Shown here: in pieces, positions 34,565 to 57,372 of the stretch | Numbering within the stretch: the stretch's first letter is position 1 | Layout: the number at the start of each line of letters is the position of its first letter | Assembly: GCA_021813445.1 (NCBI GenBank) | Contig: JAKAKP010000163.1 | Location: 1-57,372 of the forward strand | Length of the DNA: 57,372 nt | Origin: Deltaproteobacteria bacterium | GTDB taxonomy: Bacteria > Desulfobacterota > Desulfobaccia > Desulfobaccales > 0-14-0-80-60-11 | Reading direction: 5' to 3' | Program-made: the position numbers and the translations under genes | Notes under the pieces: model-generated | Database searches by the model: none | What the model was told of the DNA's origin: nothing | The model's input: only the letters and a program-made list of their open reading frames with translations

Positions 34565-34907
34565 TTCTTATTGACCTGATAGCTTCTCTATCCCTTTCGG
34601 CCGTGCGGATGCGCACCGCCTGCTCCACCGGCAAGACGAAGATAACACCGTCTCCGGGGTTCCCGGTATGGGCGGCTTTTTCAATGGTGCGCACCACTTC
34701 TTCTACCAACTCGTCCTTCACCACCGCCTCCAGGCGCATCTTAGGGACAAATTCCCGAATGACTTTGTCGCCGGGCACTTTTACCTTGCCCCGGCCAAAG
34801 CCTTGGATTTCGATAACGCTCATTCCAGGGAAACCGGCGATTTGCTGCAAGGCGCGGGTCACCTTTGAGAGCATGAAGGGCTGGATATACGCTTGTATCT
34901 CTTTCAT
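34542..34907 (-). CDS. PII-like protein linked to metal efflux
   Basis: 121 residues from MKEIQAYIQPFMLSKVTRAL. This is the PII fold: IQGFGRG precedes the T-loop, which lacks the uridylylated Tyr, then RLEAVVKDELVEEVVRTI and NPGDGVIFVLPVEQAVRIRT. Such PII-like proteins are found next to CzcA/CusA-type transporters and probably tune their activity rather than nitrogen metabolism (family knowledge; ligand here unknown). It is placed between the RND pump and the P-ATPase with overlapping or near-abutting ends. Confidence 0.8.
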   Translation of the reverse strand: MKEIQAYIQPFMLSKVTRALQQIAGFPGMSVIEIQGFGRGKVKVPGDKVIREFVPKMRLEAVVKDELVEEVVRTIEKAAHTGNPGDGVIFVLPVEQAVRIRTAERDREAIRSIRNEKKDNN

Positions 34908-34917
34908 GAGCCACCTC

Positions 34918-37900
34918 CTAAATCTCCGGCAAGCGTTCGGCAAAAGTGCGATAGAGCACGGGCAGGATTACCAACGTCAGCAAGGTCGAAGTAAACAAGC
35001 CGCTCACCACCACCACCGCCAGGGGCCGCTGCACTTCCGAACCAGGTCCGGTGGCGAAAAGCAGAGGTACCAGCCCCAGGATGGCCACCAGGGCGGTCAT
35101 TAAGACCGGACGGAGGCGTCGGTTGCAACCCTCCTGCACCGCCTCCTCCAAGGGTAGGCCCTCCTGCCGAAGTTGGTTGATCTGGGAGACCAGGACCACG
35201 CCGTTCAGCACCGCCACTCCGAAGAGGGCGATGAAACCCACCGAGGCCGGGACGCTCAAGTAAAGCCCGGTGATGAGCAGGCCCAGGATGCCGCCGATGA
35301 TCGCCAAAGGGAGATTCAGGATGATGAGCGCGGCATAACGCACTGAATCGAAGGTCAGAAACAGGAGCAGGAAGATGATGGCGATGGTCACCGGAACAAT
35401 GACCATGAGGCGCCGCATAGCCCGCTGCTGGTTCTCGAAGGCCCCGCCCCAGGAGAGGTAATAGCCGGGAGGCAGCCCCAGGCGAGCTTCTATCAGGGTC
35501 TGGGCCTCGGCCACCAGGCCGCCGATGCCCCGGCCTTCCACGTTGAATTCCACCACGATCCGGCGCCGGGCGTCGTCCCGGCTGATCTGGACCGGGCCCT
35601 CCTCCTTCGTAATCGTCGCCAGATCCGCCAGGGGAATGCGGCGGCCGCCGGAGGCCTCCACCAGGATATTGCCGATGGTCTGGATGCTCTTGCGCCGGTC
35701 TTCCGGGAAGCGCACCTGGACGCCCACCCGCAGTTGCCCCTCACGGATCTCGGTGGCCACCTTGCCTCCCACCGCCGTTTCAATGACTTCCTGGATGTCG
35801 GCCACGTTGATGCCGTAGCGGGCGATTTTCCGCCGGTCGATCGTGACATTCAGGTAAGGCTGCCCCGCCACCTGCTCAACTCGCAGATCGGTGACCCCCT
35901 TAATCCCCTTAAGCAGGCGGCCCGCCTCCTCGGCCTTGCGCAGCAAGATTTCCATGTCGTCACCGAAGATTTTGACCGCTACCTGGGACTTGACCCCGGA
36001 AATGAGTTCGTCTACCCGGAGCGCAATGGGCTGGGTGAGGTTGATGCCCACCCCCGGAATCTTGGCCAGTTCTATCCGCATCTTCTCCACCAACTCGTCG
36101 GTAGTGCGGATCGTGCTCCACTCCGAACGGGGTTTGAGCACCACGATGGGATCGCTGATGTTCGGCCCCATGGGATCGGTGGCAATTTCCGCGGCTCCGA
36201 TCTTGGAAACCACCGCGGCCACCTCGGGAAACTGCATCATTACCTGTTGGGCCTGGCGCTCAATTTCTACGGACTGGCTCAGGGACACGGAGGGGAGGCG
36301 GATGACCTGGGGTGTGAGATAGCCCTCATCCATCCGGGGAATGAACTCGGTCCCTAGAAACGGCACCATGGCCAGGGAGATTGCTAAAATGCCCGCGGCT
36401 CCCAACACTACGATGCGACGGTGGCCCAGGGCCCAGGTCAGGGAAGGCCGGTAGAGGCGCCGGGCATACTTAAGGAGCAGGCTTTCCCGCTCGACTCCGG
36501 GCTTGAGCAGGTAAGAGCAGAGCACCGGAACGGCAACTATGGACAGGACCAGGGAGGCCAGGAGGGCAATAACTACAGTAAAGGCCAGAGGCGCAAACAT
36601 CTTTCCCTCCATGCCCTGAAGGGTCATAATGGGCAGGAAAGTGATGGCGATGATCAACTCCCCGAAAAGACTAGGCTTTCGCACCTCCAAGACTGCCTCC
36701 AGCACGGCGCGCATAAAGCCCCGGCCGGTATCGGGTTCCCCCAGGTGGTGCATGACGTTTTCCACCTGGATGACTGCCGCGTCCACGACCATGCCGATGG
36801 AAATGGCCAGGCCGCCAAAGGTCATGAGATTGGCGGTGAGCCCCGTCAATCGCATGACAATGAAAGTCATCAGGGTGGCCAGAGGGAGCGTCAGGGCAAT
36901 GACCGCAGACCCCTTGAGGCTTCGGAGGAACAGGTAGACCACCAGAATGACCAGGACCACCCCCTCGGCGATGGCCTTGCTTACCGTGGCCAGGCAGTCC
37001 CGCACCAGGCCGGTGCGGTCGTAGAAGGCTTCCAACTTGATGCCGTTGGGGAGGATGCCGCCCTTGTTGATCTCCTTCACCTTTTCTTTGACCGCGGCCA
37101 CCACTTCCCGGCCGCTGCCGCCCCGGATCATGAGGACGATGCCCACTACGGCCTCGCGCTTGCCGTCCTTCACCGTCGCGCCCCATCTAGTGGCCGGGCC
37201 TTCTTCGACTGCGGCCACGTCCCGGACCAACACCGGCGCGCCGTCCACTTCTTTGAGGACCACCTCCTCGATATCTTCCTTGCTCTGCATCAGGCCTAAA
37301 CTCCGCACCATCGCCTGTTCGCTCCCCTGCTCCAGGAGGTTGCCCCCGGCGTTGGCGTTGTTAGCAGACAGAGCGTTAAAAACCTGGCGCAAGGAAAGGT
37401 CATACTTGGCCAGCCGGTCGGGATCGACGTTCACATGGTACTGGCGCACCTGGCCCCCGAAGGAATTAACCTCTGTCACCCCAGGTACGGTTTTGAGCAA
37501 AGGCCGGACGATGCCGTCCTGCACGGTGCGCAGACGCATCAGGCGTAACTCTTCTTCCCGGGGCGAGGCCAGGGGCGGGGCATCGGGCTCTTCCAGGGTG
37601 TACTGGTATATTTCCCCTAGGCCGGTGGAGATGGGCCCCAATACCGGCTCGGCTCCCTTGGGAAGCTTTTCCTTGGCCTCAATGAGACGTTCCAGCACCA
37701 GCTGCCGGGCGAAATAGATGTCCACTTGATCCTTAAAAACTATGGTTACCAACGACAGGCCGAATTTGGACAGTGACCGCAACTCCACCATGTCCGGCAG
37801 ACCTGCCATCTGCACTTCAATGGGAAAGGTGACCTGCTGCTCCACTTCTACCGGCGACATGCCGGGCCAGGTGGTGATCACCTGCACCTGGACGTTGGTT

Positions 37901-38028
37901 ACATCAGGAAAGGCATCCACCGGCAACTTGAGGGCGGCGTAGGAACCATAGCCCACCAGGCCGGCCAGGAAGACGAGGATCAGAAAGCGGTGACGGAGAC
38001 AGGTTTGAACGATTTTTTCAATGCCCAT
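34918..38028 (-). CDS. Heavy-metal RND efflux pump inner-membrane subunit (CusA/CzcA family)
   Basis: 1036 residues, full length for HME-RND pumps. It shows the LPVDAFPDVTNVQVQV start, two large periplasmic loops and twelve membrane helices in two sets. The TM4 motif GMVVDAAVIQVENV carries the proton-relay Asp and Glu. The DAA spacing resembles monovalent (Cu/Ag) pumps, while other stretches (GVAVLNGVVLVSQINQLRQEG) are CzcA-like, so the metal cannot be decided. The gene overlaps the membrane fusion gene by 11 bases. Confidence 0.9.
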   Translation of the reverse strand: MGIEKIVQTCLRHRFLILVFLAGLVGYGSYAALKLPVDAFPDVTNVQVQVITTWPGMSPVEVEQQVTFPIEVQMAGLPDMVELRSLSKFGLSLVTIVFKDQVDIYFARQLVLERLIEAKEKLPKGAEPVLGPISTGLGEIYQYTLEEPDAPPLASPREEELRLMRLRTVQDGIVRPLLKTVPGVTEVNSFGGQVRQYHVNVDPDRLAKYDLSLRQVFNALSANNANAGGNLLEQGSEQAMVRSLGLMQSKEDIEEVVLKEVDGAPVLVRDVAAVEEGPATRWGATVKDGKREAVVGIVLMIRGGSGREVVAAVKEKVKEINKGGILPNGIKLEAFYDRTGLVRDCLATVSKAIAEGVVLVILVVYLFLRSLKGSAVIALTLPLATLMTFIVMRLTGLTANLMTFGGLAISIGMVVDAAVIQVENVMHHLGEPDTGRGFMRAVLEAVLEVRKPSLFGELIIAITFLPIMTLQGMEGKMFAPLAFTVVIALLASLVLSIVAVPVLCSYLLKPGVERESLLLKYARRLYRPSLTWALGHRRIVVLGAAGILAISLAMVPFLGTEFIPRMDEGYLTPQVIRLPSVSLSQSVEIERQAQQVMMQFPEVAAVVSKIGAAEIATDPMGPNISDPIVVLKPRSEWSTIRTTDELVEKMRIELAKIPGVGINLTQPIALRVDELISGVKSQVAVKIFGDDMEILLRKAEEAGRLLKGIKGVTDLRVEQVAGQPYLNVTIDRRKIARYGINVADIQEVIETAVGGKVATEIREGQLRVGVQVRFPEDRRKSIQTIGNILVEASGGRRIPLADLATITKEEGPVQISRDDARRRIVVEFNVEGRGIGGLVAEAQTLIEARLGLPPGYYLSWGGAFENQQRAMRRLMVIVPVTIAIIFLLLFLTFDSVRYAALIILNLPLAIIGGILGLLITGLYLSVPASVGFIALFGVAVLNGVVLVSQINQLRQEGLPLEEAVQEGCNRRLRPVLMTALVAILGLVPLLFATGPGSEVQRPLAVVVVSGLFTSTLLTLVILPVLYRTFAERLPEI

Positions 38029-39349
38029 GCTCCGCCTCCAGGCTTTCTTTCTCCAGTTCGGACTTAAGAGTGAAGGCCCCCTGGATCACCACCCGCTCTC
38101 CTTCCTTCAGGCCCTCCAGCACCTCCACCCGGCCGCCCGCCTGCAGGCCGGGTTTGATGACGCGCTTGAGATACAGCCCGGGTTCCTGTTCGATAAAGAC
38201 ATACTGCTCGCCGCCGGTGGCCACCAGCGCGGCTTCTGGCACGTTGAGGACCGTCCGGGTATCGGAAGCTACCATGATGGTAGCGAACATCCCGGCTTTT
38301 AGCTCGCCATGGGAGTTATCCACCCTAACCCGGGCCCGGGTCATGCGGGTGGCCTTTTCCACCATAGCGGCAATGTAGTCGATGGCGCCGGGAAACTTTT
38401 CCTGGGGCAGGGCACTGACCCTGATAATTACGGCGGCGCCGGTTTTTACCAGGGACAAATCCTTCTCCGGAATCTGGACGTAGCACCACAAGGTGGCGGG
38501 GTCCGAGACTGTGAAGAGTTCTTCGTCCGCCTTGACCACCAGGCCGGGAGTCACCTTGCGATCCACCACCTGCCCGGAGATAGGAGAACGCAAGGTAAAG
38601 GTGGAATCCACTTCCGCGTGAAAACTTGGTCCCTTCCGCGATTTGCTTCCCCGGAAGAGGCGGGCGATATCGGCGTCGTTCAGACCCAGGAGATGAAGAC
38701 GGTTCTCGGCATAATCACGCTCCGATGTGGCCAGTTCAAACTTGGCCTGGCGCTCCTGGAACTCGGCTTGGCTGATGGCCTTCTCCTGCCATAAGAGGCG
38801 GGCCCGCTCGTAAGTTTTCTGGGCCACCCGGTAGCTGGCCGCGGCCTGGAGAAAGGAGTTTTGAGCCTGACCCAACTCCACGCTGTCGATGACGGCCAGG
38901 GCGTCTCCCTTTTTCACCTCTGCCCCATAGTCGGCAGTAATTTTGACCACCCGGCCGGCCAGGCGGGAATTCACCCGTGCCGTTTTCTCCTCGTTAAAGA
39001 CCAGTTCGCCGGTAAGCTGCACCTTGCTGGCTAATGCTCCGGCTGCTACCGTTTCCACCTTGAGATTGGCCCGCTTCACCGCTTCGGGGCTCAACTTCAC
39101 CTGGCCCGGCGAGTGGGCTCCTTCTTTGTGATCATCATGCTTATCACCTTCGGGCTTATGGACTTCGGGTTTGTCGCCTTTGGGTTTTTGAGCTTCATGG
39201 TCGTGAGCTTCATGTTGTTGGGACTTTTGCCCCCGGTCTTTATCCGGGTCTTTTTTCTGGGCACTCCCGGGAAGGGAAAACCAAACCGCCGCCGCCAGGA
39301 CCAGGACCACGATGATAATTCTCTTGAGCGTGAAAAAATTACGTACCAT
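38018..39349 (-). CDS. Heavy-metal RND membrane fusion protein (CusB/CzcB family)
   Basis: 443 residues. A signal anchor (IIIVVLVLAAAVWFSL) precedes a His/Asp/Lys-rich segment (residues about 30-80, with HEAHDHEAQK and KHDDHKEGAH), a likely metal-binding tail as in CzcB. Then come the lipoyl and hairpin domains (RLAGRVVKITADYGAEVKKG, SYRVAQKTYERARLLW) and a barrel (FTLRSPISGQVVDRKVTPG). It bridges pump and outer-membrane channel, and starts four bases after TolC. Confidence 0.9.
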   Translation of the reverse strand: MVRNFFTLKRIIIVVLVLAAAVWFSLPGSAQKKDPDKDRGQKSQQHEAHDHEAQKPKGDKPEVHKPEGDKHDDHKEGAHSPGQVKLSPEAVKRANLKVETVAAGALASKVQLTGELVFNEEKTARVNSRLAGRVVKITADYGAEVKKGDALAVIDSVELGQAQNSFLQAAASYRVAQKTYERARLLWQEKAISQAEFQERQAKFELATSERDYAENRLHLLGLNDADIARLFRGSKSRKGPSFHAEVDSTFTLRSPISGQVVDRKVTPGLVVKADEELFTVSDPATLWCYVQIPEKDLSLVKTGAAVIIRVSALPQEKFPGAIDYIAAMVEKATRMTRARVRVDNSHGELKAGMFATIMVASDTRTVLNVPEAALVATGGEQYVFIEQEPGLYLKRVIKPGLQAGGRVEVLEGLKEGERVVIQGAFTLKSELEKESLEAEHGH

Positions 39350-39352
39350 GGT

Positions 39353-40582
39353 TTAGATACCCCCCCCGGCGATACGCCAGAGTTCCGCCTGGGCCAGCCA
39401 GTATTCCAACAGGGCTTTGTAATAATCCTGCTCCGAGGCCCGGTAGACGCGGCGGGAATCCAGCAGTTCCAGCAGCCCCGTTTCTCCCTGCCGGTAGGTG
39501 AATTCGGCCAGACGCAAAGATTCCGCCGCCTGGGGCAGGATATTCTTTTGGAATGACTCCACCTGGCGCCGGGCTACCGTGTAGAGGCTGTACTGGGCCG
39601 CCAGCTTGGTCTCCAACTCCTGGCGGGTGAGGCCGAGGTCGGCTTCGGCCTGGCGCCTGGCGGCCGCGGCCTTATCCACCTCGCCGCCCTTGCGATTCCA
39701 CAAGGGCAGGGGGATGGAAAGGCCTCCGCCCGTGGCCTTCAGGTCGATGTCCCGGTTATGGAAGACTTTCACGGTCACATCCGGCATCCAGGCCTGCCGC
39801 TCGGCGCTCAAGGTGCTCTCAGCCTGGCGAAAAGCGGCGTTTTGGGCCGCCAGCAGAGGATGGGCCACCAGCGCCGCCTCGCGCCAGCGCGCCAGCGGAA
39901 TAGCCTCATCCATGGCGGTGAACTTGCCGGTTACGGCAAAATCGGCCGGTAGGTTCTCCAGCAAGAATCGGTTTAACACCTGGCGATCCCCTGTGAGCGT
40001 CGTCCTGGCCTTTTCGTGTTCCCGCTCCTGGGAGTAGAATTCCACCTGCGCCTTAATCAGTTCTATCTGGCGGCTCTCTCCCAGGCGGACGCGTTTTTCC
40101 ACCAGGTCGAGAAGTTGCTTGGCGGAATCAAGGTTCTCCCGGGCCACCTTGACGAATTGCTCGTCGGCCAGCACCCGGTAGAAGAGTTCCCGCAACCTGG
40201 CAATGACGCTAAGTTCTTCGTTGGTCACCAACTTTTGGGCGCTCTCTATCCCGAAGCGGGCGGCCTCCTGTTTCCTGGCCCGGCGGCCGGGCCATTCGAG
40301 GGTCTGGGAGAGCGCCACCGTGTAACCTACGCCGGTTTCAGGTCCCGGAATCTCCTTTTCCCTGGACACGGTGCCTTCCACCTGCGGGTTGGGGTATTGC
40401 TTGGTGATGCGCAATTCGGCTTCGTTCTTCCGCACCTCCTCCCTGGCCTTACGGAGGCCGGGATGGACCTTCAGGGTGAGTTCCTCCAACTCCTTCAGGG
40501 AATAGGCACGGGTTTCAGCCGCCATCGAGTTCTGCACCCAGAACAGCAACAACAATAATATAGCCAGGGCATACCTTCTCAT
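39353..40582 (-). CDS. Outer-membrane efflux channel, TolC/CusC/CzcC family
   Basis: 409 residues from the ATG at 40582; a TTG two codons earlier is better spaced from the AGGAGG at about 40600. A signal peptide (YALAILLLLLFWVQNSMAAE) precedes two OEP repeats with long helices (GLRKAREEVRKNEAELRITK, AQKLVTNEELSVIARLREL, LGLTRQELETKLAAQYSLY). It completes the tripartite RND system and is the first large gene of that operon. Confidence 0.88.
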   Translation of the reverse strand: MRRYALAILLLLLFWVQNSMAAETRAYSLKELEELTLKVHPGLRKAREEVRKNEAELRITKQYPNPQVEGTVSREKEIPGPETGVGYTVALSQTLEWPGRRARKQEAARFGIESAQKLVTNEELSVIARLRELFYRVLADEQFVKVARENLDSAKQLLDLVEKRVRLGESRQIELIKAQVEFYSQEREHEKARTTLTGDRQVLNRFLLENLPADFAVTGKFTAMDEAIPLARWREAALVAHPLLAAQNAAFRQAESTLSAERQAWMPDVTVKVFHNRDIDLKATGGGLSIPLPLWNRKGGEVDKAAAARRQAEADLGLTRQELETKLAAQYSLYTVARRQVESFQKNILPQAAESLRLAEFTYRQGETGLLELLDSRRVYRASEQDYYKALLEYWLAQAELWRIAGGGI

Positions 40583-40645
40583 ATGCAAGGCATCCTCCTT
40601 ATTCACAAGATTTCCAGGAAAAATATTTCTAAGGAATTTTAAGGA

Positions 40646-49061: not shown

Positions 49062-50579
49062 CTATTCGATCAGGATCAGGGCGAAGTAGTTCCATCGGCC
49101 AAAGGTCTCTTTTCTGGTGTCGATGTCAAAGTCGTTGTGTCTGGCAGTTTTAAACACATCAATACCGCAGGCTTCCATCATGGGCCTGATCCTGAGTTTG
49201 GTTAGTTCGCTTCTCTGAGGCCCAGGCTGGGCCTCTGCTGCTGCTGTGGGGCAAGTACCGCCAGGGCTGGGAGATGGTTTAACCTCTTTGGTTTTCAAAG
49301 GCTCACCCGGAGCCTCCGCCTGCTTGGAGGGTCAGCCAGCGCCAGGGTTTGGTTTGACCTCCTCCACCCTTACAGGCTCCGCCGGAGCCTGGGTCTCACC
49401 GGATGGTCAGGTGGCCCCCGGAGCGGAGGCCGGCGCACACGCAGACAAACCACTGGGCACCAGGGCGACGAGAGCGAAGGCCTTATAGTAACCCCGATGG
49501 TAAGCTTCGCCTTCCAGCTTAACCGCCGCTTCGCTTAGCGTCTGCCCATTGGGACCATTGAGAAGGATGGCCTTGGTATATTCTCCGAGAACCCTTTTTG
49601 TGCTTGCCGCATCCGGGGCGAAGGGGGGGTGGAAGGGGGCTTTCTCGAAGAGAGGGCAACCATACTGGCACTTCCATCTCACCCATTCCTCCACCGCCAC
49701 CGTTTCCGCGTCGATGATTTTGGCTTTCTCGGCCCCCAACTCCAAGGCCCGTTTTAGCAGGTATTCCATCTTACCCTCCCGCATTCCCGCCTCTCCGGTT
49801 GGTTTTCGCTCCCAAACACCCGCCTCCACGGGCGGCTTGACGGCTCGAAACAACACTCCCTTGGTTACCGGAGAGCTGTTGAAGCCGGTTTCCATTGCCA
49901 GTTCGGACTCTTCAAACCCCGCCTGTTCTAACAGTGCCAGGAAAACCTTTCCCGGTATGGCTCCGCCTTCTCACCTGGCCCAGTTCTCCACGCGAGCTTT
50001 GGTTTCCTTGGGCAATTCCCCGGCCAGCACCTGGTCGGCCAACATGAACCGCCCTCCCGGCTTCAGAACCCGGTAGACTTCGCCCAGAGCTTTGACTTTA
50101 TCCACCACCAGGTTAAAGACGCCATTGGAGATCACCAAGTCAAAGCTGTTATCAGGGAAGGGCAACCGTTCCGCGGATGATTCCTGGAAAGTGACGTTAT
50201 CGACGCCTGCCAGGCGAGCATTCTCGCTCGCTTTGGCCAGCATCTCGGGAACCAGGTCAATTCCCGTCACTGCCCCCGAAGGCCCCACCAGCTTTGCGGC
50301 AATGATGGAATCGACCCCGGCGCCGCAACCGATGTCCAGGACCGTTTCACCTTCCCGAATCGGCCCTAAGGTAAAAGGGTTACCCACCCCACAATAGGCA
50401 GCGGCCACGGGCTCCGGCAGCCCACGGACCAGATCCGGAGCATAGTTCAGCGCCTCCAGCCCGGCCCGGCCGGTGGGGTACCGAAAGAGTCCTTCCGGGC
50501 TGGCGGCAACCTTGAGGTATTTCCCCCGGATGCTCGCCTCGATCCGTTGCTTGTCTTGGCGGGTTAACTCGTTTTCCAT
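49062..50579 (-). CDS. arsM: ArsM-DUF2284 fusion, predicted selenoprotein with three UGA codons
   Basis: One frame of 505 codons with three in-frame TGA (residues 203, 391, 416). Residues 1-232 are an arsenite S-adenosylmethionine methyltransferase: FRYPTG, Cys63 in AAYCGVGNPF, VLDIGCGAG, VISNGVFNLV and YRVLKPGGRF. The first TGA (49973-49971) falls in W-A-R-U-E-G-G-A, exactly where ArsM has its second catalytic Cys (W-x-x-C-x-x-G-A), and LALLEQAGF continues beyond. After a linker, residues 271-505 form a DUF2284 domain (KCQYGCPLF, PPFAPD, EYTKAILL, GYYKAFAL, MMEACGIDVF, closing TAG). Two more TGA (49409-49407, 49334-49332) lie in a repeat inside it; the third copy has TGC. An internal ATG at 49769 with GGGAGGG upstream could also start DUF2284 alone. 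Confidence 0.82.
49217..49235 (-). other. Hairpin after the Cys codon of the third repeat
   Basis: GAGGCCCAGCCTGGGCCTC is a near-perfect palindrome beginning 15 bases after the TGC at 49253-49251. It is in the same place as the SECIS-like hairpins of the two preceding repeat units, which suggests that this unit descended from a UGA-bearing copy. Confidence 0.55.
49299..49315 (-). other. SECIS-like hairpin after the second repeat UGA
   Basis: AGGCTC pairs with GAGCCT around the loop CGGGT, starting 16 bases after the TGA at 49334-49332. A loop with GG/GU at about 22-26 bases from the UGA fits bacterial SECIS spacing (established range roughly 16-37 bases). Confidence 0.6.
49373..49391 (-). 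other. SECIS-like hairpin after the first repeat UGA
   Basis: CAGGCTCCGGCGGAGCCTG forms a 7-bp stem with loop CGGCG, starting 15 bases after the TGA at 49409-49407. Spacing and G-containing loop fit a bacterial SECIS element read by SelB. Confidence 0.62.
49936..49961 (-). other. Possible SECIS-like hairpin after the ArsM UGA
   Basis: Nine bases after the TGA (49973-49971), GCCA pairs with TGGC, enclosing ACC/GGT around a GGGAAA loop with an internal bulge. It is weaker than the hairpins after the repeat UGA codons, but the loop lies at a plausible distance. Confidence 0.4.
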
Positions 50580-50878: not shown

Positions 50879-51139
50879 TTACAACTTCACCCCGGTTATC
50901 TTGAGCTTGCCTTCTCTGACCAGCTTGCCGATTAGGAAGTGGACGCTCTCTTCGGAGAGCTTGAGTTGGGCAGCCAGGTCAGCAGGGGGGCAACTTCCCC
51001 TTTCCTTAAGAAATTCAATAACCTCACCTTCCAACGCTTTAACCCACTCCTCAAACAACCCTCTCAATTCCGGGGAGGCAAAACCCGCCAGCCTGCCGAC
51101 CTCGACGACCGTACCGGTCATCTGCTCGCACATCTGCAT
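50879..51139 (-). CDS. Small winged-helix-like protein
   Basis: 86 residues with Cys5 (MQMCEQMTG) and a C-terminal winged helix pattern (CPPADLAAQLKLSEESVHFL, IGKLVREGKLKITGVKL). It starts directly after the stop of the 32-residue gene. It may be a regulator of the operon or a DNA-binding accessory. Confidence 0.65.
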   Translation of the reverse strand: MQMCEQMTGTVVEVGRLAGFASPELRGLFEEWVKALEGEVIEFLKERGSCPPADLAAQLKLSEESVHFLIGKLVREGKLKITGVKL

Positions 51140-51238
51140 TCACCTCTCCACCATGGGCAGCATGGAACCGCCTTGACCCTCCAGCATCTTTTTCATCATC
51201 TCCATGCCCATGCCCGGGCCGCAACCTTTCTCTTCCAT
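51140..51238 (-). CDS. 32-residue Met-rich small protein
   Basis: ATG at 51238 has GAGGGAAGG five bases upstream, and the stop abuts the next ATG (TGAATG). The sequence starts MEEKGCGPGMGMEMMKKMLE and ends MLPMVER. Seven Met and one Cys suggest metalloid or copper binding (inference). The good ribosome site and tight coupling make it a real gene despite its size. Confidence 0.65.
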   Translation of the reverse strand: MEEKGCGPGMGMEMMKKMLEGQGGSMLPMVER

Positions 51239-51275
51239 GGTAACCTTCCCTCAGTTATATTGTTGATCTTAATTA

Positions 51276-51993: not shown

Positions 51994-52350
51994 TTATTTC
52001 ATCCACCTCTGCATGAACCGCATCGGTGGGAACATAAAGGTTCCCTTGTCTTCGATCTCACCCTTGGGGGAAACCCCGGCAAGGGAAATCAAAAGATCGA
52101 TTAAACCCGGCTCCGAGACGCTATAATAGACAAAAGGCCCTTTTCGCTCCGTCGCCAGGAGGCCGCTTTCCCGCAGCGGCCTTAAGTGAAAAGACACCAG
52201 GGTCTGCGACAATGAGGTCTCATTTATTATTTCTGAGACTGATTTTTTCTCCTTGCCTATTGCAAAGATTATCCTCAACCTGTTGGCATCGCTTAAAAGC
52301 TTGAATAGCTTAGCGAGCGAATCCAGTATTTTCTCATCTAGCAGTTTCAT
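51994..52350 (-). CDS. ArsR-family repressor without Cys
   Basis: 118 residues with the ArsR/SmtB winged helix (LFKLLSDANRLRIIFAI, TSLSQTLVSFHLRPLRESGL, GPFVYYSVSEPGL). It has no Cys at all, so a classical thiolate As(III) site is missing; the Met-rich end (FMFPPMRFMQRWMK) might take part instead. It leads the arsenic operon and probably binds the palindrome in its own promoter. Confidence 0.85.
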   Translation of the reverse strand: MKLLDEKILDSLAKLFKLLSDANRLRIIFAIGKEKKSVSEIINETSLSQTLVSFHLRPLRESGLLATERKGPFVYYSVSEPGLIDLLISLAGVSPKGEIEDKGTFMFPPMRFMQRWMK

Positions 52351-52477: not shown

Positions 52478-53023
52478 TCAAGGTGAATTGGAATCACACC
52501 GGCATCCATCTCCTTTGCAGGAGGGGCCTGCCGGGGCGGGATCAGGCGAGGGCTGGTGCCGGTTCATCCACCACCAGGCCCCGATAATGGAGAGTGTGGT
52601 GACCACGGCCACCAGGGGCTTGGCCAGGGGGAGAAACCCGGCACCGAACAGGCTCAGGTAAACCACCAGCATGGGGGAGCCGCAGCAGCCCACCAGGAAG
52701 CAGCCCGCCAGGGCCAGGAAGCCCGAGAGCACCCCGCCGAAAGCCAGGGTTTTGGCGGAACAGAAGCGCTCTTCCCGGTAACGCCGCAGGGCCGCGGCCG
52801 CAAACGCCAGGGACAGGGCGTAGGAATAACCCAGCCAGTAGCCCTGGGTCTCCAGGTAGTGATTCAGCCAGGAGGCATCCGAGGCCGAGGGGGAAGCCCA
52901 TCGGGCCTGAGCAGGGTCCACTTCCGGGAACAGGCCGGACCATACATAGTGCGCCGCCGCCACCCCCAGAAAAACCGCCAGGGGCAACAGAAAGCGCCAT
53001 AATTTCTGCCCCAAAGAGGTCAT
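52478..53023 (-). CDS. Membrane protein with GCCGSP motif
   Basis: 181 residues, four or five membrane helices. The central helices hold FLALAGCFLVGCCGSPMLVV, with a Cys cluster within the membrane, and the C terminus ends in KGDGCRCDSNSP. The layout (membrane Cys pair plus Cys-rich cytoplasmic tail) recalls metal or mercury transport proteins, but the family is not recognised. It overlaps the OB-fold gene by four bases. Confidence 0.6.
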   Translation of the reverse strand: MTSLGQKLWRFLLPLAVFLGVAAAHYVWSGLFPEVDPAQARWASPSASDASWLNHYLETQGYWLGYSYALSLAFAAAALRRYREERFCSAKTLAFGGVLSGFLALAGCFLVGCCGSPMLVVYLSLFGAGFLPLAKPLVAVVTTLSIIGAWWWMNRHQPSPDPAPAGPSCKGDGCRCDSNSP

Positions 53024-53433
53024 GGGCGAGTCACCTTCTCCAGCTTCTCAGCCACAAACATGAGCTTGCCTTGGACTTCCTGGGCCTGCCCTTCTACCCG
53101 CACCAAGTCGCGCACGGCGGGCATGGGGCCGCGCCATTGCACCGGCAAGGTCAGTTGGGCGCAGGTGGTAACGCCGCAGGCCTGTAATTCACCGCTATCG
53201 ATGAGGGAAATCGCCTGCTGCTCCGGGGTTACGGCGCTTACCACCCCTTCCAGACTCACTTTTCCTTTGTAGCGGTCCACATTTTTCATGAAATCATCGA
53301 CTCCCAAAACCTTTTTAGGGGACGCGGCCACCTCGCCGGCCTGGAGGCCTTGGCTCAGGCTAAAGACCACCAAAAAGGCGATCGTCATGGCGGTAATTAC
53401 ACTAAATGTATTAGGCTTGGCACATCGTTGCAT
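53020..53433 (-). CDS. Secreted OB-fold-like protein
   Basis: 137 residues: signal peptide (ITAMTIAFLVVFSLSQGLQA), then a beta-barrel pattern (GKVSLEGVVSAVTPEQQAIS, LIDSGELQACGVTTCAQLTL, VRVEGQAQEVQGKLMFVAEK). Two Cys in ACGVTTC may bind metal or form a disulfide. It sits between the corrinoid protein and the GCCGSP membrane protein in one operon. Confidence 0.65.
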   Translation of the reverse strand: MQRCAKPNTFSVITAMTIAFLVVFSLSQGLQAGEVAASPKKVLGVDDFMKNVDRYKGKVSLEGVVSAVTPEQQAISLIDSGELQACGVTTCAQLTLPVQWRGPMPAVRDLVRVEGQAQEVQGKLMFVAEKLEKVTRP

Positions 53434-53512
53434 TTATCAACTCCTATTAGGGGAGGGAATTGGTCTAAGGGGTTGACAATCCGTGCAGCCGACCGGCTGC
53501 TTCTCAGGTCCC

Positions 53513-54688
53513 TCAGGCTCCGGCCTCATTGCAGGCAGGGTCGCAGGCGACGCTTGCCAGGGTGAGAGGCGGGGCCAATTCCGGCGCGGCATCCTGCACG
53601 AACGGCTCCCCGACACGCAAACTCTCCTCGGCCCGGGCCAGTTCCCCGCCCAGATAAGCGGCGTGATCCAGGCGGGAGATAAGGCCCCGGTCAATGGCCG
53701 GAGTATAAAGCTCTGCGGCGGTGGCGCCCTCAATCACTACATCCAGCAACCCGTCATTGAGGTAATGCTCCAGAGACAGTATTCCCCGGCCCCGGTCCAC
53801 ATAAATGACGAAGTAACCGGCAGGGTCGCTCACCATACGGGTGGGCAGATAGCCGGGGATCGGCGACACGACGGGGCCGGCGGCAAATGGCTGGGCTGTC
53901 CCCGGATTCCGGGCGGCGCACCGTTGTGCCGCCGAGAGCACCTTGCAGGCCTCGACTTCTCCGATGAGGTCAATCACCTCCACCACCTCCCGGAAGTGGG
54001 CCACGGCCTCGGGGCTGAGGTTTTTTAGGAGGGGCCGCCGTCCCTGCGCCCCCACGATGCGCCTGCGGTCATCCATGCCATACTGCGCCAGGGCCACCAG
54101 CGATTGCCCCGGATAGTGCCCCACGGCTTGCTGGGAGTCGGGGCCGCAGACAATCACAAAACGCAGGTGGGGGTTGGCCAGGACATTCTGAATAAGTCGC
54201 TCGATCCCCAAATTTTCGGTATGCAGCGTCCCCACCAAAGCGATTTCCGGGCCGCCCTCCCGCACCACGGCAGCAGCCAGGTCCTCAGCCGTGATGCAGC
54301 ATACGGCCAACGGAGCCTGGTAGCGCAGCACCCGGTAGGTTCCGGGCAGAGGCGGCCACCCCCGGCGTTCTTCCACCTTTTCTGTAGGGCAAACCTCAAG
54401 GTCGGCCACGGCTTCGCCCAAAGCCTGGGTTAAAGCGTTCACTACCAGGGGCGGGATGCAGACTTCGCACCCCAGGCAGTCATATTGGCGCTCCACCAAA
54501 CATAGCTTCGCGGTTTCCACCGTTTCCCGGAGTTCCTGTGGGCCTGCCCCCGCCGGGAAAGCCTGTTCCAGCGCCACGACAAGTTGATGAAAGCAGCCGC
54601 AGGCCCGGCATTTCTCCGCGGCCATGGCCTCTTGCAAATACGTCAAGGCTTTCTTAAGGGCCTGCTCTTTTTCTTGGTTTAGGTTCAT
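53513..54688 (-). CDS. MtrA-like corrinoid protein fused to DUF4346
   Basis: 391 residues. The N terminus has Cys clusters (KCRACGC at 27-32; CLGCEVC at 71-77). Residues about 110-250 match subunit A of methyl-H4MPT:CoM methyltransferase: WPPLPGTYRV, LVGTLHTENLGIERLIQNVL and VIVCGPD..AVGHYPGQS, where His191 corresponds to the cobalt ligand of MtrA. The C-terminal 115 residues are DUF4346-like (AGYFVIYVDRGRGILSLEHY, AAYLGGELARAEESLRVG). It has no membrane anchor. The start overlaps the ArsR stop, so it is co-regulated. A role in methyl transfer to or from a metal(loid) is an inference. Confidence 0.75.
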   Translation of the reverse strand: MNLNQEKEQALKKALTYLQEAMAAEKCRACGCFHQLVVALEQAFPAGAGPQELRETVETAKLCLVERQYDCLGCEVCIPPLVVNALTQALGEAVADLEVCPTEKVEERRGWPPLPGTYRVLRYQAPLAVCCITAEDLAAAVVREGGPEIALVGTLHTENLGIERLIQNVLANPHLRFVIVCGPDSQQAVGHYPGQSLVALAQYGMDDRRRIVGAQGRRPLLKNLSPEAVAHFREVVEVIDLIGEVEACKVLSAAQRCAARNPGTAQPFAAGPVVSPIPGYLPTRMVSDPAGYFVIYVDRGRGILSLEHYLNDGLLDVVIEGATAAELYTPAIDRGLISRLDHAAYLGGELARAEESLRVGEPFVQDAAPELAPPLTLASVACDPACNEAGA

Positions 54689-55050
54689 CTGCTTCTCGCT
54701 TTAGCATCTTCGCTGAGGCAAAGACCATGATCCAGGATTTCGATGACGCACCGGTCTACAATCCGGTAATAGATATTGTTGCCGTTGCGCCTGTGTCCCA
54801 GGAAGCCGCGATCCACCAGTTTCTGGAGCTGGTTGGAGACTGCCTGGGGTTTCATGCCCAAGAGATCGGCCAGTTCGGTCATGCGCATCTCTTCCGCCCG
54901 TACCAGCGCATGGATGAGCCGCAAGCGCGTATCATTGGCCAGGACCTTGAACAATCCCACCATCTCGGCGGCTTGCTCCCCCGTCAGCAAGGGGCGATCC
55001 TCCAATCTGGGCTTGGGCAGGCAGGTTTTGGGAACACTTTCAGCTTTCAT
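54685..55050 (-). CDS. ArsR/SmtB-family metal-responsive repressor
   Basis: 121 residues with the winged helix (FKVLANDTRLRLIHALV, MTELADLLGMKPQAVSNQLQ, NNIYYRIVD). Cys occur at residue 10 (KTCLPKP) and in DRCVIEILDHGLCLSEDA. C-terminal Cys in this arrangement serve as metal ligands in CmtR/CadC-type sensors. The -10 box lies only eight bases before the ATG at 55050, so the mRNA is almost leaderless or the true start is the internal ATG at about residue 30. Confidence 0.87.
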   Translation of the reverse strand: MKAESVPKTCLPKPRLEDRPLLTGEQAAEMVGLFKVLANDTRLRLIHALVRAEEMRMTELADLLGMKPQAVSNQLQKLVDRGFLGHRRNGNNIYYRIVDRCVIEILDHGLCLSEDAKARSR

Positions 55051-55058
55051 TTGGTAAT

Positions 55059-55087
55059 ATAGTATTACATGTATTAATGTATGTCAA
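55059..55087 (-). promoter_or_regulatory. Promoter with operator-like palindrome of the corrinoid operon
   Basis: TTGACA (55087-55082) and TACTAT (55064-55059) are 17 bases apart on the minus strand, a near-consensus sigma-70 promoter. The spacer contains an imperfect A/T-rich palindrome centred on ACATGT (TTAAT-ACATGT-AATAC), suited to ArsR binding. Confidence 0.72.
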
Positions 55088-55113: not shown

Positions 55114-56229
55114 TTATCCCTTAGCTTTCAGGAATTCGATCTTTTCCGAAACTCTTGGCGTTCCGGTCGAGAGAGCCAGCTCGATCAGATCCTTACGGCG
55201 CAGTTTTCGAAGACCTTTCTCCAGGTTGGTTTTATTGACGGAGAGGAGCGGCCAGACTTCCTCCCGGCCAAGCCCTGCTTCCAGCAAAGTCATGGCGACC
55301 AATTGGGGGTCCAGGTCGTAAGAAGTGGCCTGGGAAGAACTGAAAACCAGATCTCCTGCCTGGATTGGGCCATTTTCTCTTACCCAATCCTTCAGCCGAG
55401 CAGCAAGGTCCTTCTCCATTTTCTGCAGAGTCAAGAGTAGAGAGGCAGCTTTCTGGGCCTGTTCCCGGGTGACCGGGGCCATAACCTCCACCGGCGTCAG
55501 GGCCTGGGCCATTACCGGACAGTGTGCCGTAACCCCGCACCAGCCACAGAAAGACCCTGGGGTAGGAGTGAGGGTGTGGTCCGCCTCAATAACTTCGATA
55601 CGGGCCTTAAGCTCATCCGGAACCGCGGCCAGGTCCAGGTGGGTAAGCAGCACTTCCCGCTCTTTGCCGTAGCGCAGAAAATGCAGCCGCAGCAGCACCT
55701 CTTCAATGTCGGGATAGAGGGCCTGCTTCAGGTCCCAGCCATAAGTCCGAAGTTGGAGGTCTTTCTCCACTGTCTGTGGCATCGCCCGGTTAGTCTTCCA
55801 ATCGATGATTACCCCCAGGGCTTCCTGGCGAAAATGGAAATCGATAACCATGCGAAAGTAGGCCGCCTCAGAGAAAAACTCGCAGGGCTGCCAGTCAGCG
55901 TCAAATGCCAGCTTGTTTTCCACCCCGGGGCTGTCCATGACCGGAGGTAGGGTGAAGGTCTGGTAAAACCTTTCCCACATCTCCACCATTTCGGATACCT
56001 GGGTAACGGGTTTTTTCGGACTGGCGCCTTGGGCCCATTCCCAGTCGGTGAGCTGAGTTGAGGCAATGAGCCGTTCCAGGTAGTCGGCGACCAACTGGTG
56101 CATGACGGTACCGGTTTGCAGGGCCTCGCTTTTGGCCCGGGGGATTTTGTCAATGTGGACCGTCTTGTAGGCCCAAGGGCATCGCTCATAGAGGTCCAGG
56201 CGAGAAAACGAGTATTGCGGGTTTTTCAT
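55114..56229 (-). CDS. Cas4/RecB-like PD-(D/E)XK nuclease with Fe-S cysteines
   Basis: 371 residues. Landmarks: SFSRLDLYERCPWAYK (first Cys), GTVMHQLVADYL, RMVIDFHF, VIIDWKTNR (catalytic Asp and Lys) and a C-terminal CGWCGVTAHCP, which with the first Cys would hold a 4Fe-4S cluster as in Cas4 and AddB. No cas1/cas2 or repeats are nearby, so a phage recombination nuclease is more likely. After its stop, AAAAGGAG (55109-55102) stands as a ribosome site with no gene behind it, just before the metal-operon promoter. Confidence 0.85.
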   Translation of the reverse strand: MKNPQYSFSRLDLYERCPWAYKTVHIDKIPRAKSEALQTGTVMHQLVADYLERLIASTQLTDWEWAQGASPKKPVTQVSEMVEMWERFYQTFTLPPVMDSPGVENKLAFDADWQPCEFFSEAAYFRMVIDFHFRQEALGVIIDWKTNRAMPQTVEKDLQLRTYGWDLKQALYPDIEEVLLRLHFLRYGKEREVLLTHLDLAAVPDELKARIEVIEADHTLTPTPGSFCGWCGVTAHCPVMAQALTPVEVMAPVTREQAQKAASLLLTLQKMEKDLAARLKDWVRENGPIQAGDLVFSSSQATSYDLDPQLVAMTLLEAGLGREEVWPLLSVNKTNLEKGLRKLRRKDLIELALSTGTPRVSEKIEFLKAKG

Positions 56230-56330
56230 GGTGTCCTCCTGAATATTGAGGGACCCACCCCGAAATCAGTCGCATGAGAACCCAGCGAAGGGCTGATCTC
56301 GGGGTGTGTAAGGGGTTTTTATATAGAGGT

Positions 56331-57372
56331 TCAAAAGAGGGAGAGCTTGCCCTCGCCGTCGGCCTGAACAGGCTTGAGGTGCGTCTTTTTGCCATTGGGG
56401 GGAGATTGCGGCGGTTCCGGCTCCTCCGGCCCGATCTGCACCCGCATGACCCCATTACTTTCAGAGGGAATTTCGGTCGCCTGCAACCCTTCACCGCAGT
56501 CCGGCCAGTCATAGCCCGGGGAGATGGTTTCGCCGGCCTGGGGGTCCGCTATTTTAGCCCCACCGCTTTCCATTTCGGCCTCCTGGGGTTGGTCCTGGGA
56601 AGTTGACGGGGTCCCCGGGTTCGCCTCTCCGGTGGCTGAAGGTAGGGCTGTATCCGGTTCCGGGCTAAACATGATCCTCCCGGCCTGGACATTTGGGTCC
56701 TCTACCGCCCCTTCCGGGAAAAACTCCTGGGCTGTTTCCGCCTGCTCCAGGGGCGGTTCCTGGTGCGGGGCCACCAGCTGCTTCTGGGCCAGCTCTTCGA
56801 CGGTCTCCATCCTGACCCGGTGTTCCACCCGCCGCCGGGCCAGTTCATACCCCAGTTCAGCCAACTCATTTTCCGGACCCCGGTACTCCAGGGAAATGAT
56901 AAAGACCACCATGTTCTGTCCGCTCGTAGGCACAGTGACGGTCTTGGGAGATAGGACCATCCAAAGGGGGATGCCCGCAAGGGGGCCGCCGGTAATGGTC
57001 TTAATGAGGGCCAGACTTGAGAGGATGGCGTTCACCGTGTTCCAACTGGTGGTCCGGAACTTCCAAACCCCGCCGATGCGGTCCACCCCCTCGATGAGCA
57101 CTTGCAAGGTCCCTAAGGTCTTGCACTTGTCTTGCCCATGATAGAGTGGGTCCTGGCGCTCACAAGGACACTGGACTTCCTGGTATTTGCCGTTCTCTCC
57201 GGTGAGACGCTGAGCCACTTCCCCGTCGCCGGTACACCAACACCGGGTGCCCCGGTAGCAGGCATATCGAGTCTGGAAGTTCAAGTCGATGTCGTCATAG
57301 AGCAGCCGCACCGGGATCTCGGTGATCTTGCCGCCCTCAGGTTTGAGCCTGGCCAGAATAGGTGTATCCTGC
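56331..57372 (-). CDS. Gp3-like (phage recombination directionality factor family) protein, 5' end outside window
   Basis: The frame is open to the right edge, so the N terminus is missing; a GTG at 57311 is internal. It reads TPILARLKPEGGKITEIPVR, a Cys region (CWCTGDGEVAQRL, VQCPCERQDP, KCKTLGTLQVLIEGV) and GVWKFRTTSWNTVNAILSSL, then GGPLAGIPLWMVL. These match the gp3-like family named after the phiC31 recombination directionality factor, often annotated as metal-binding phage proteins. The C-terminal 150 residues are charged and low complexity. Its presence indicates that phage genes resume right of the metal cargo. Confidence 0.6.
   Translation of the reverse strand, partial: QDTPILARLKPEGGKITEIPVRLLYDDIDLNFQTRYACYRGTRCWCTGDGEVAQRLTGENGKYQEVQCPCERQDPLYHGQDKCKTLGTLQVLIEGVDRIGGVWKFRTTSWNTVNAILSSLALIKTITGGPLAGIPLWMVLSPKTVTVPTSGQNMVVFIISLEYRGPENELAELGYELARRRVEHRVRMETVEELAQKQLVAPHQEPPLEQAETAQEFFPEGAVEDPNVQAGRIMFSPEPDTALPSATGEANPGTPSTSQDQPQEAEMESGGAKIADPQAGETISPGYDWPDCGEGLQATEIPSESNGVMRVQIGPEEPEPPQSPPNGKKTHLKPVQADGEGKLSLF

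Follow-up and report, generated by a model that had tools for sequence, protein, structure and literature searches.

The window is a 57,372-nucleotide stretch of DNA that makes up one entire contig of a Deltaproteobacteria bacterium genome (G000; 4.18 Mb, 166 contigs). A four-gene unit at 52,478-55,050 on the minus strand encodes an ArsR regulator, a soluble 391-residue protein, an exported small protein and a membrane protein. The first-pass annotation described the fusion gene as translationally coupled to arsR, and both open reading frames are as it stated, on the minus strand with an ATGA overlap; the two downstream genes also overlap each other, by four bases. From upstream to downstream, the features are:

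55,059-55,087, minus strand: sigma70-like promoter (TTGACA-17-TACTAT) with a putative operator at 55,064-55,083 (CATACATTAATACATGTAAT)
54,685-55,050, minus strand: ArsR/SmtB regulator, class A (NF033788, 77.1 bits, cut-off 55)
53,513-54,688, minus strand: MtrA-DUF4346 fusion protein, 391 residues, soluble (open reading frame, Pfam, NCBIfam, alignment, model)
54,374-54,688, minus strand: N-terminal helical domain of the fusion with C27xxCxC32 and C71xxCxxC77 (alignment, model)
53,894-54,373, minus strand: predicted MtrA cobalamin-binding domain, residues 106-265 (PF04208), with H191 as predicted Co ligand
53,591-53,827, minus strand: DUF4346 domain, residues 288-366 (PF14251, 72 bits, cut-off 29.6)
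53,020-53,433, minus strand: small protein, exported or membrane-anchored, with CX4C, first labelled a putative OB-fold
52,478-53,023, minus strand: membrane protein with GCCGSP within a membrane segment and a Cys-rich tail

Hydropathy places a single, N-terminal hydrophobic segment in the small protein, and the intramembrane cysteines first noticed in the membrane protein are the Cys-Cys pair of GCCGSP. Searches of both downstream proteins against Pfam and NCBIfam returned zero matches, and no Rfam element was found in the window. The same genome encodes a second full-length fusion on contig C58, 83% identical and also accompanied by ArsR, as well as a short MtrA without DUF4346. Genes for a P-type ATPase of the Zn/Cd/Pb type and for RND efflux of the CusA/CzcA type occupy 32,204-40,606 on the minus strand and mark the window's right part as a metal-resistance island. 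On the left side, at 6,585-31,131, lie prophage-type genes (portal protein, Mu F-like); directly past arsR, at 55,114-57,371, a PD-(D/E)XK nuclease is accompanied by a protein resembling a recombination directionality factor. A phage link of the fusion family was rejected on zero matches in 50,697 phage records.

The 391-residue protein matches PF04208 (MtrA) at 122.1 bits against a cut-off of 25, and with both Pfam domains above their cut-offs the MtrA-DUF4346 fusion proposed at first pass holds, as do its TENLGIE motif and GH histidine (H191). The MtrA crystal-structure paper lists Tyr18, Thr53, Glu54, Asn55, Gly57, Asn64 and His84 around cobalamin (PMC4915002). HMMER alignment equates these with Y118, T157, E158, N159, G161, N168 and H191 of the fusion protein, respectively. 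Relatives were recruited from 84,980 species genomes with the peptide patterns Y[DEA]CLGC[EK][VH]C and [VA]G[TK][LMT][HE]TEN[LI], yielding 165, of which the best 80 loci were analysed; conservation of C71/C74/C77 and TEN is therefore partly selected, and that of C27/C30/C32, Y118, N168, H191 and N223 is unselected. Among 86 family members, T157, N159 and G161 are kept in 86, E158 and N168 in 85 and Y118 in 82, with the TEN values partly selected by the pattern; H191 is present in 85 of the 85 with a letter there. The first-pass annotation took loss of the His or TENLGIE residues in homologues as evidence against its reading, and His and TEN are kept in essentially all of the 86.

An AlphaFold2 model of the fusion protein built from 73 sequences has a mean pLDDT of 88. 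Fold searches covered about residues 106-263, the MtrA part, and model residues 106-273 superimpose on solved MtrA (5l8x/5laa) with Z 24.7 and rmsd 2.0 over 162 residues. This score and the 165 relatives make the fusion more than a chance observation. Alignment and model together support well a corrinoid-type domain with an intact cofactor site, which would bind a cobamide. The fusion protein contains no hydrophobic segment of 19 residues over 1.6. Membership of the Mtr complex was rejected on the score to TIGR01111, the Mtr-complex MtrA (119.1 bits, below the equivalog cut-off of 249), and on the absent C-terminal membrane anchor; no other Mtr subunit was recognised within the window. NF002128 (PRK00964.1-6) matches residues 4-386 at 445.7 bits, below its cut-off of 568, so the whole architecture is close to an annotated family, for which a search brought up no tested function. 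Each domain is known, and the name that NF002128 gives to such proteins refers to methanogenesis.

The two N-terminal Cys clusters recorded at first pass correspond to C27xxCxC32 and C71xxCxxC77. Both are invariant among members with residues there, C27xxCxC in 83 of 83 and C71xxCxxC (CLGCxxC), part of a recruiting pattern, in 85 of 85. The domain is modelled with good confidence by AlphaFold2 in the full protein, and a single-sequence model of the N-terminus alone is poor (pLDDT 69). Pfam gives no confident match to it, only weak Fe-S-type ones, among them LdpA_Fe-S-bd (E 0.011) in the Planococcus protein, which carries additional Cys-rich repeats. One homologue (L140 5,178, genome G194) has TGA precisely at the first Cys of CLGCxxC (Cys71) in an otherwise intact gene, and its genome encodes SelB, which suggests Sec at this position and a candidate selenoprotein version.

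The DUF4346 domain of the MtrA fusions carries DPxGYF...EH...HAxYLGRxLAxAE...VQD, which recurs in cyanobacterial solo proteins and at the C-terminal end of DHPS-like TIGR00284 proteins; six of the nine non-MtrA rows in this alignment are informative, and the other three (L020, L022, L025), being wrong reading frames, are uncounted. Two cyanobacteria (L135, L136) encode solo DUF4346 proteins of 130-142 residues besides an MtrA fusion. An obligatory partnership with the DHPS-like protein was rejected, its DUF4346 tail being absent from the 26 other genomes searched.

The window ArsR has Cys at positions 10, 101 and 111. Class A ArsRs combine an N-terminal Cys with DPCV...GLCL near the C-terminus, of which the window carries the variant DRCV...GLCL. 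Class B ArsRs carry CxxxCF and ELCVCD, the site known from CadC of the Staphylococcus plasmid pI258. Both sensor classes are Cys-based, one of them of CadC type. Upstream of class A loci, the motif ATTACAY-N6-RTGTAAT keeps at least 10 of its 12 fixed bases in 18 of 21 loci, a count whose scanned stretch excludes the exact operator of locus L061. The mean score is 10.9 of 12 for class A, compared with 7.5 for shuffled sequence, and 7.4 for the 14 class B loci, compared with 7.4. Twelve exact copies occur in the best 80 loci, all 387-476 bp before mtrA. The putative window operator at 55,064-55,083 sits between and over the promoter hexamers, with two mismatches to ATTACAYN6RTGTAAT and, by itself, a chance-level score in the window; the operator of the second copy (C58:65,314) has the same placement. 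Allowing up to two mismatches, the genome holds 15 sites compared with 8 in the reversed control. The predicted Cys sensors and putative promoter-placed operators support the metal-responsive ArsR control first proposed: ArsR regulation of the cassette is well supported by these sequences, and sensor class and operator point to metal sensing.

By title, the best 80 of the 165 loci come from Acidobacteria, Planctomycetes, Chloroflexi, Nitrospirae, Myxococcota, Beta- and Gammaproteobacteria, Hyphomicrobium, Cyanobacteria, Bacteroidetes, Verrucomicrobia, Armatimonadetes and one Thermoplasmata archaeon. The tree of the fusion family, built without five rows (four shorter than 300 residues, plus L133), requires 23 phylum changes compared with a minimum of 14, some of its 'Myxococcota' labels deriving from old 'Deltaproteobacteria' titles. 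Within the phylum of the window, 38 of 297 genomes match NF002128, many through DUF4346 or a short MtrA only. Bins labelled SKS are among the loci and may come from SKS, described in one source as a high-mercury mine (PMC9948709).

Same-strand ArsR occupies position -1 in 29 of 78 loci and position -2 in 8 of 74 (best 80 of 165), counts that are lower bounds because the ORF script missed five ArsRs; none lies on the same strand at +1 to +5 among the best 80. In the main clade, counted with loci absent from the tree, ArsR lies just upstream in 38 of 58 loci by automatic ORF choice and in 43 of 58 after hand reading. The divergent clades (Bacteroidetes, Cyanobacteria, Nitrospirae and others), with ArsR in 2 of 22 loci, may have a different function.

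Neighbour clusters were counted within 7 kb of the best 80 of 165 loci. ArsR is near 49 loci on either strand, and the two downstream genes of the window recur at 18 loci each, as the GCCGSP membrane protein (cluster C2, GCCGSPM kept) and the small exported protein (cluster C3). They are followed by CcdA-like (16), thioredoxin-like (16), CzcA (13), ABC ATPase (11), P-type ATPase (9), MacB/FtsX permease (8), MerR (7), TlpA/ResA-like (7), CDF (6), MerC (5) and DsbD (3) clusters, with CzcA, CDF and some others named by eye and the rest from profile matches. At least one metal-type gene is present at 58 of the 80 loci, and neither metal nor membrane-module genes at 9. MerC, where present, directly precedes mtrA; against models of organomercurial MerC these MerC-like proteins reach a weak 26 bits (cut-off 170). 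MerR, MerA and MerC-like genes adjoin the operon at L081, in Dechloromonas hortensis, which like P. kocurii carries the fusion gene naturally. At G161 a CadC-like ArsR stands behind the fusion gene, with RND-type and HMA-bearing genes, read by eye, on the flanks.

The fusion gene is carried by 4 of 72,556 PLSDB plasmids, three of them small Planococcus plasmids. Plasmids pA30H1 and pA26H3 share the order ArsR, HMA protein, heavy-metal P-type ATPase, MtrA-DUF4346 and ISL3 transposase, and the plasmid ATPase belongs to the cadmium family (TIGR01512, 510 bits, cut-off 313.5). A Planococcus plasmid P-type ATPase (L131 5,350-7,266, plus strand) carries an SCSCSL motif. Cadmium-type pumps usually have CPC at this position, and the ion specificity of this ATPase may be unusual. 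The plasmid cassettes with cadmium-type pumps and the CzcA, CDF, MerC and Acr3 neighbours place the family in thiophilic-metal resistance, and since its cassettes stand under toxic-metal sensors the fusion protein probably aids survival of cadmium, lead, mercury or arsenic. The gene neighbourhoods of DUF4346-MtrA with ArsR thus tie the family to metal resistance, and consistent association with an unrelated pathway, held at first pass to speak against its reading, is not seen: none recurs in the ArsR-linked clade.

Mercury was rejected as a general substrate, because MerA exceeds its cut-off in 4 of 27 genomes and MerB in 1 of 27; the genome of the window yields no MerA at 1e-60. CobS is missing in 14 of 26 host genomes. 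Two closely related genomes (G069, G072) have no CobS, no cobalamin riboswitch and no NrdJ over cut-off, with one weak PF02310 match or none, and their fusion proteins keep all cofactor residues. Gaps in the metagenome-assembled genomes or import could explain the absence of B12 traces; if the absence of B12 use is real, that branch may use a different cofactor.

The window also contains a tso-like selenoprotein cluster adjoining the corrinoid operon. It comprises a TsoR-like ArsR at 51,994-52,350, a TsoA-like selenoprotein at 50,879-51,271 (minus strand; TGA before MQMCEQ) and a VTT protein between them. An ArsM with DUF2284 at 49,407-50,579 on the minus strand has an in-frame TGA at residue 203 and another at 391; its match to NF041536 (ArsM_DUF2284_UU) makes it probably a selenoprotein. 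The suggestion that the fusion protein feeds this ArsM fares poorly, as the ArsM belongs to another unit, together with selenoprotein genes. As a family role, ArsM feeding was rejected: ArsM-like SAM methyltransferases (BLASTP E 1e-5 or better) lie within 7 kb of only 7 of the best 80 loci, mostly as weak matches. These neighbours include an ArsM over cut-off 6 kb off on the other strand (L077) and an ArsM-like fragment immediately behind mtrA (L109). At L047 (8,716-10,214, minus strand), a short MtrA without DUF4346 adjoins an ArsM-like SAM methyltransferase, which matches the arsenite methyltransferase model PRK11873 at 222 bits (cut-off 263). MduS-like SAM methyltransferases (251-277 bits, cut-off 380) occur near L063, L073, L077 and L082.

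By descent, the closest known proteins are the cytoplasmic MtrA homologues; by logic, the closest systems are HgcAB and mer. The fusion shares with methanogen MtrA and its cytoplasmic homologues the cobamide-binding Rossmann domain, the Co-ligand His, the TEN loop and the equivalents of Asn64 and Tyr18; it differs from methanogen MtrA in lacking a membrane helix, in its extra Cys domain and DUF4346, and in its bacterial metal-resistance setting and ArsR control. With HgcAB it would share a chemistry in which a corrinoid and Fe-S/Cys act on a thiophilic metal, but it has another cobamide domain, a His rather than Cys ligand, a single soluble protein and linkage to efflux genes. Unlike HgcAB hosts, its hosts include aerobic organisms. 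The cap-helix motif of HgcA is N(V/I)WCA; it is absent from the fusion protein, and membership of the HgcA family was rejected on this absence and the lack of a membrane segment. ArsR-like regulators near hgcAB are mentioned in one study (PMC7438021), and another gives SAM as the HgcAB donor and certain homologues as perhaps selenoproteins (PMC11588087). The mer operon likewise pairs a metal regulator with a Cys-pair membrane protein or MerC, an exported partner and a cytoplasmic enzyme, and merA is adjacent at L081; however, most fusion hosts are without MerA or MerB over cut-off, and the cassette enzyme is a corrinoid-type protein. The cadC-cadA cassettes have counterparts in the CadC-like sensor of one lineage and the cadmium-family P-type ATPase on plasmids; the fusion cassettes have the gene of the corrinoid-type protein in addition. 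In agreement with the first-pass annotation, which knew of no such system, no description was found in literature that mostly excluded subscription journals; searches for DUF4346 by name found none, and for MtrA with ArsR nothing relevant.

Our preferred reading, held with somewhat less than even confidence, is that the fusion protein is a cytoplasmic corrinoid methyl carrier that moves methyl groups to or from a metal or metalloid within a mer-like cassette. ArsR with Cys ligands would repress its own promoter until released by metals of the Cd/Pb/Hg/As type. Membrane partners with vicinal Cys (the GCCGSP protein, CcdA-like protein or MerC, by lineage) and exported thiol proteins would relay metal or reducing power. 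The MtrA domain would hold a cobamide through H191, E158, T157, N159, N168 and Y118, the six-Cys domain would carry an Fe-S cluster or the metal, and DUF4346 would close or serve the active site. Methyl groups would then pass between corrinoid and metal(loid), so that an organometal is demethylated for ion export or an ion is methylated. We lean slightly to demethylation because the partners in the cassettes are of the uptake type (MerC) or serve efflux; an importer-like partner (MerC or the vicinal-Cys membrane proteins) is sensible only if the metal is altered inside, which corrinoid methyl transfer can do. As SAM is the HgcAB methyl donor, the MduS-like or ArsM-related methyltransferases near some fusion genes could act as donor enzyme. 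Several points count against this reading: most of the best 80 loci encode no methyl donor or acceptor enzyme beside the fusion gene, and a His ligand, in contrast to the Cys ligand of HgcA, does not favour carbanion transfer. The hosts without CobS or other B12 traces, the few genomes with MerA or MerB, the weak MerC matches and the scarcity of ArsR in the divergent clades also weigh against it.

Electron transfer is an unlikely alternative, in which the cobamide and Cys domain draw on or feed a membrane thiol relay (CcdA/DsbD, thioredoxin-like), repairing thiols or reducing metal, and no methyl is moved. The CcdA-like, thioredoxin-like, TlpA/ResA-like and DsbD neighbours (16, 16, 7 and 3 of the best 80 loci) favour it, and the UGA at Cys71 in the SelB-encoding genome G194 would suit a redox Cys or Sec; but the relay proteins are predicted to be exported or membrane-bound and the cobamide protein neither, and we know the MtrA fold and ligand set only from methyl carriers.

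Rather improbably, the fusion is a metal-induced reserve for one-carbon metabolism: with the Zn of methionine synthase displaced by soft metals, it would keep methyl flowing from a pterin to homocysteine or another acceptor. DUF4346 is common to DHPS-like (TIGR00284) proteins, one of which, with a DUF4346 tail, is encoded in the genome of the window, and according to one source core methionine synthases are thought to accept methyl from corrinoid proteins, MtrA included (PMC7857596). Against this, the neighbour clusters that could be named include no recurring methionine synthase or pterin methyltransferase, and DUF4346 over cut-off is confined to the MtrA fusion in 24 of 26 other host genomes.

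We give still less credence to a metal sponge, chaperone or sensor, whose Cys domain binds metal and whose MtrA domain merely senses or stores cobamide or cobalt. Six invariant Cys, the extra Cys-rich repeats of the Planococcus protein and hosts without other signs of B12 use (G069, G072) fit such a role, yet the full cobamide site and the DUF4346 motifs are conserved beyond storage needs. An arsenic-specific unit sharing methyl groups or substrate with ArsM is very improbable: the ArsM selenoprotein 3 kb off in the window, the cases at L109, L077 and L047 and Acr3 near the fusion gene at L059, L085 and L116 speak for it, but ArsM-like genes are as rare as counted above and absent at the locus of the second copy, divalent metals are indicated by half of the sensor types and by most of the efflux partners, and ArsM uses SAM.

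There is a real chance of new chemistry in the MtrA-DUF4346 cassettes. It is conceivable, at odds we would put below even, that they represent a third corrinoid metal chemistry besides HgcAB and free methylcobalamin: a widespread, mobile, metal-induced enzyme that would use an MtrA-type cobamide with a His ligand and its own Fe-S site, in some cases with Sec, to demethylate organometals as an analogue of MerB or to methylate Cd, Pb, Hg or As. MtrA is treated and annotated as a mark of methanogenesis, yet this fusion branch is found across many phyla within metal-resistance cassettes, and also on plasmids of Firmicutes. DUF4346 gains its first testable setting. Methyl transfer on metals by the fusion, if it takes place, would mean that mines, sediments and soils harbour a source or sink of toxic organometals that has gone unseen.
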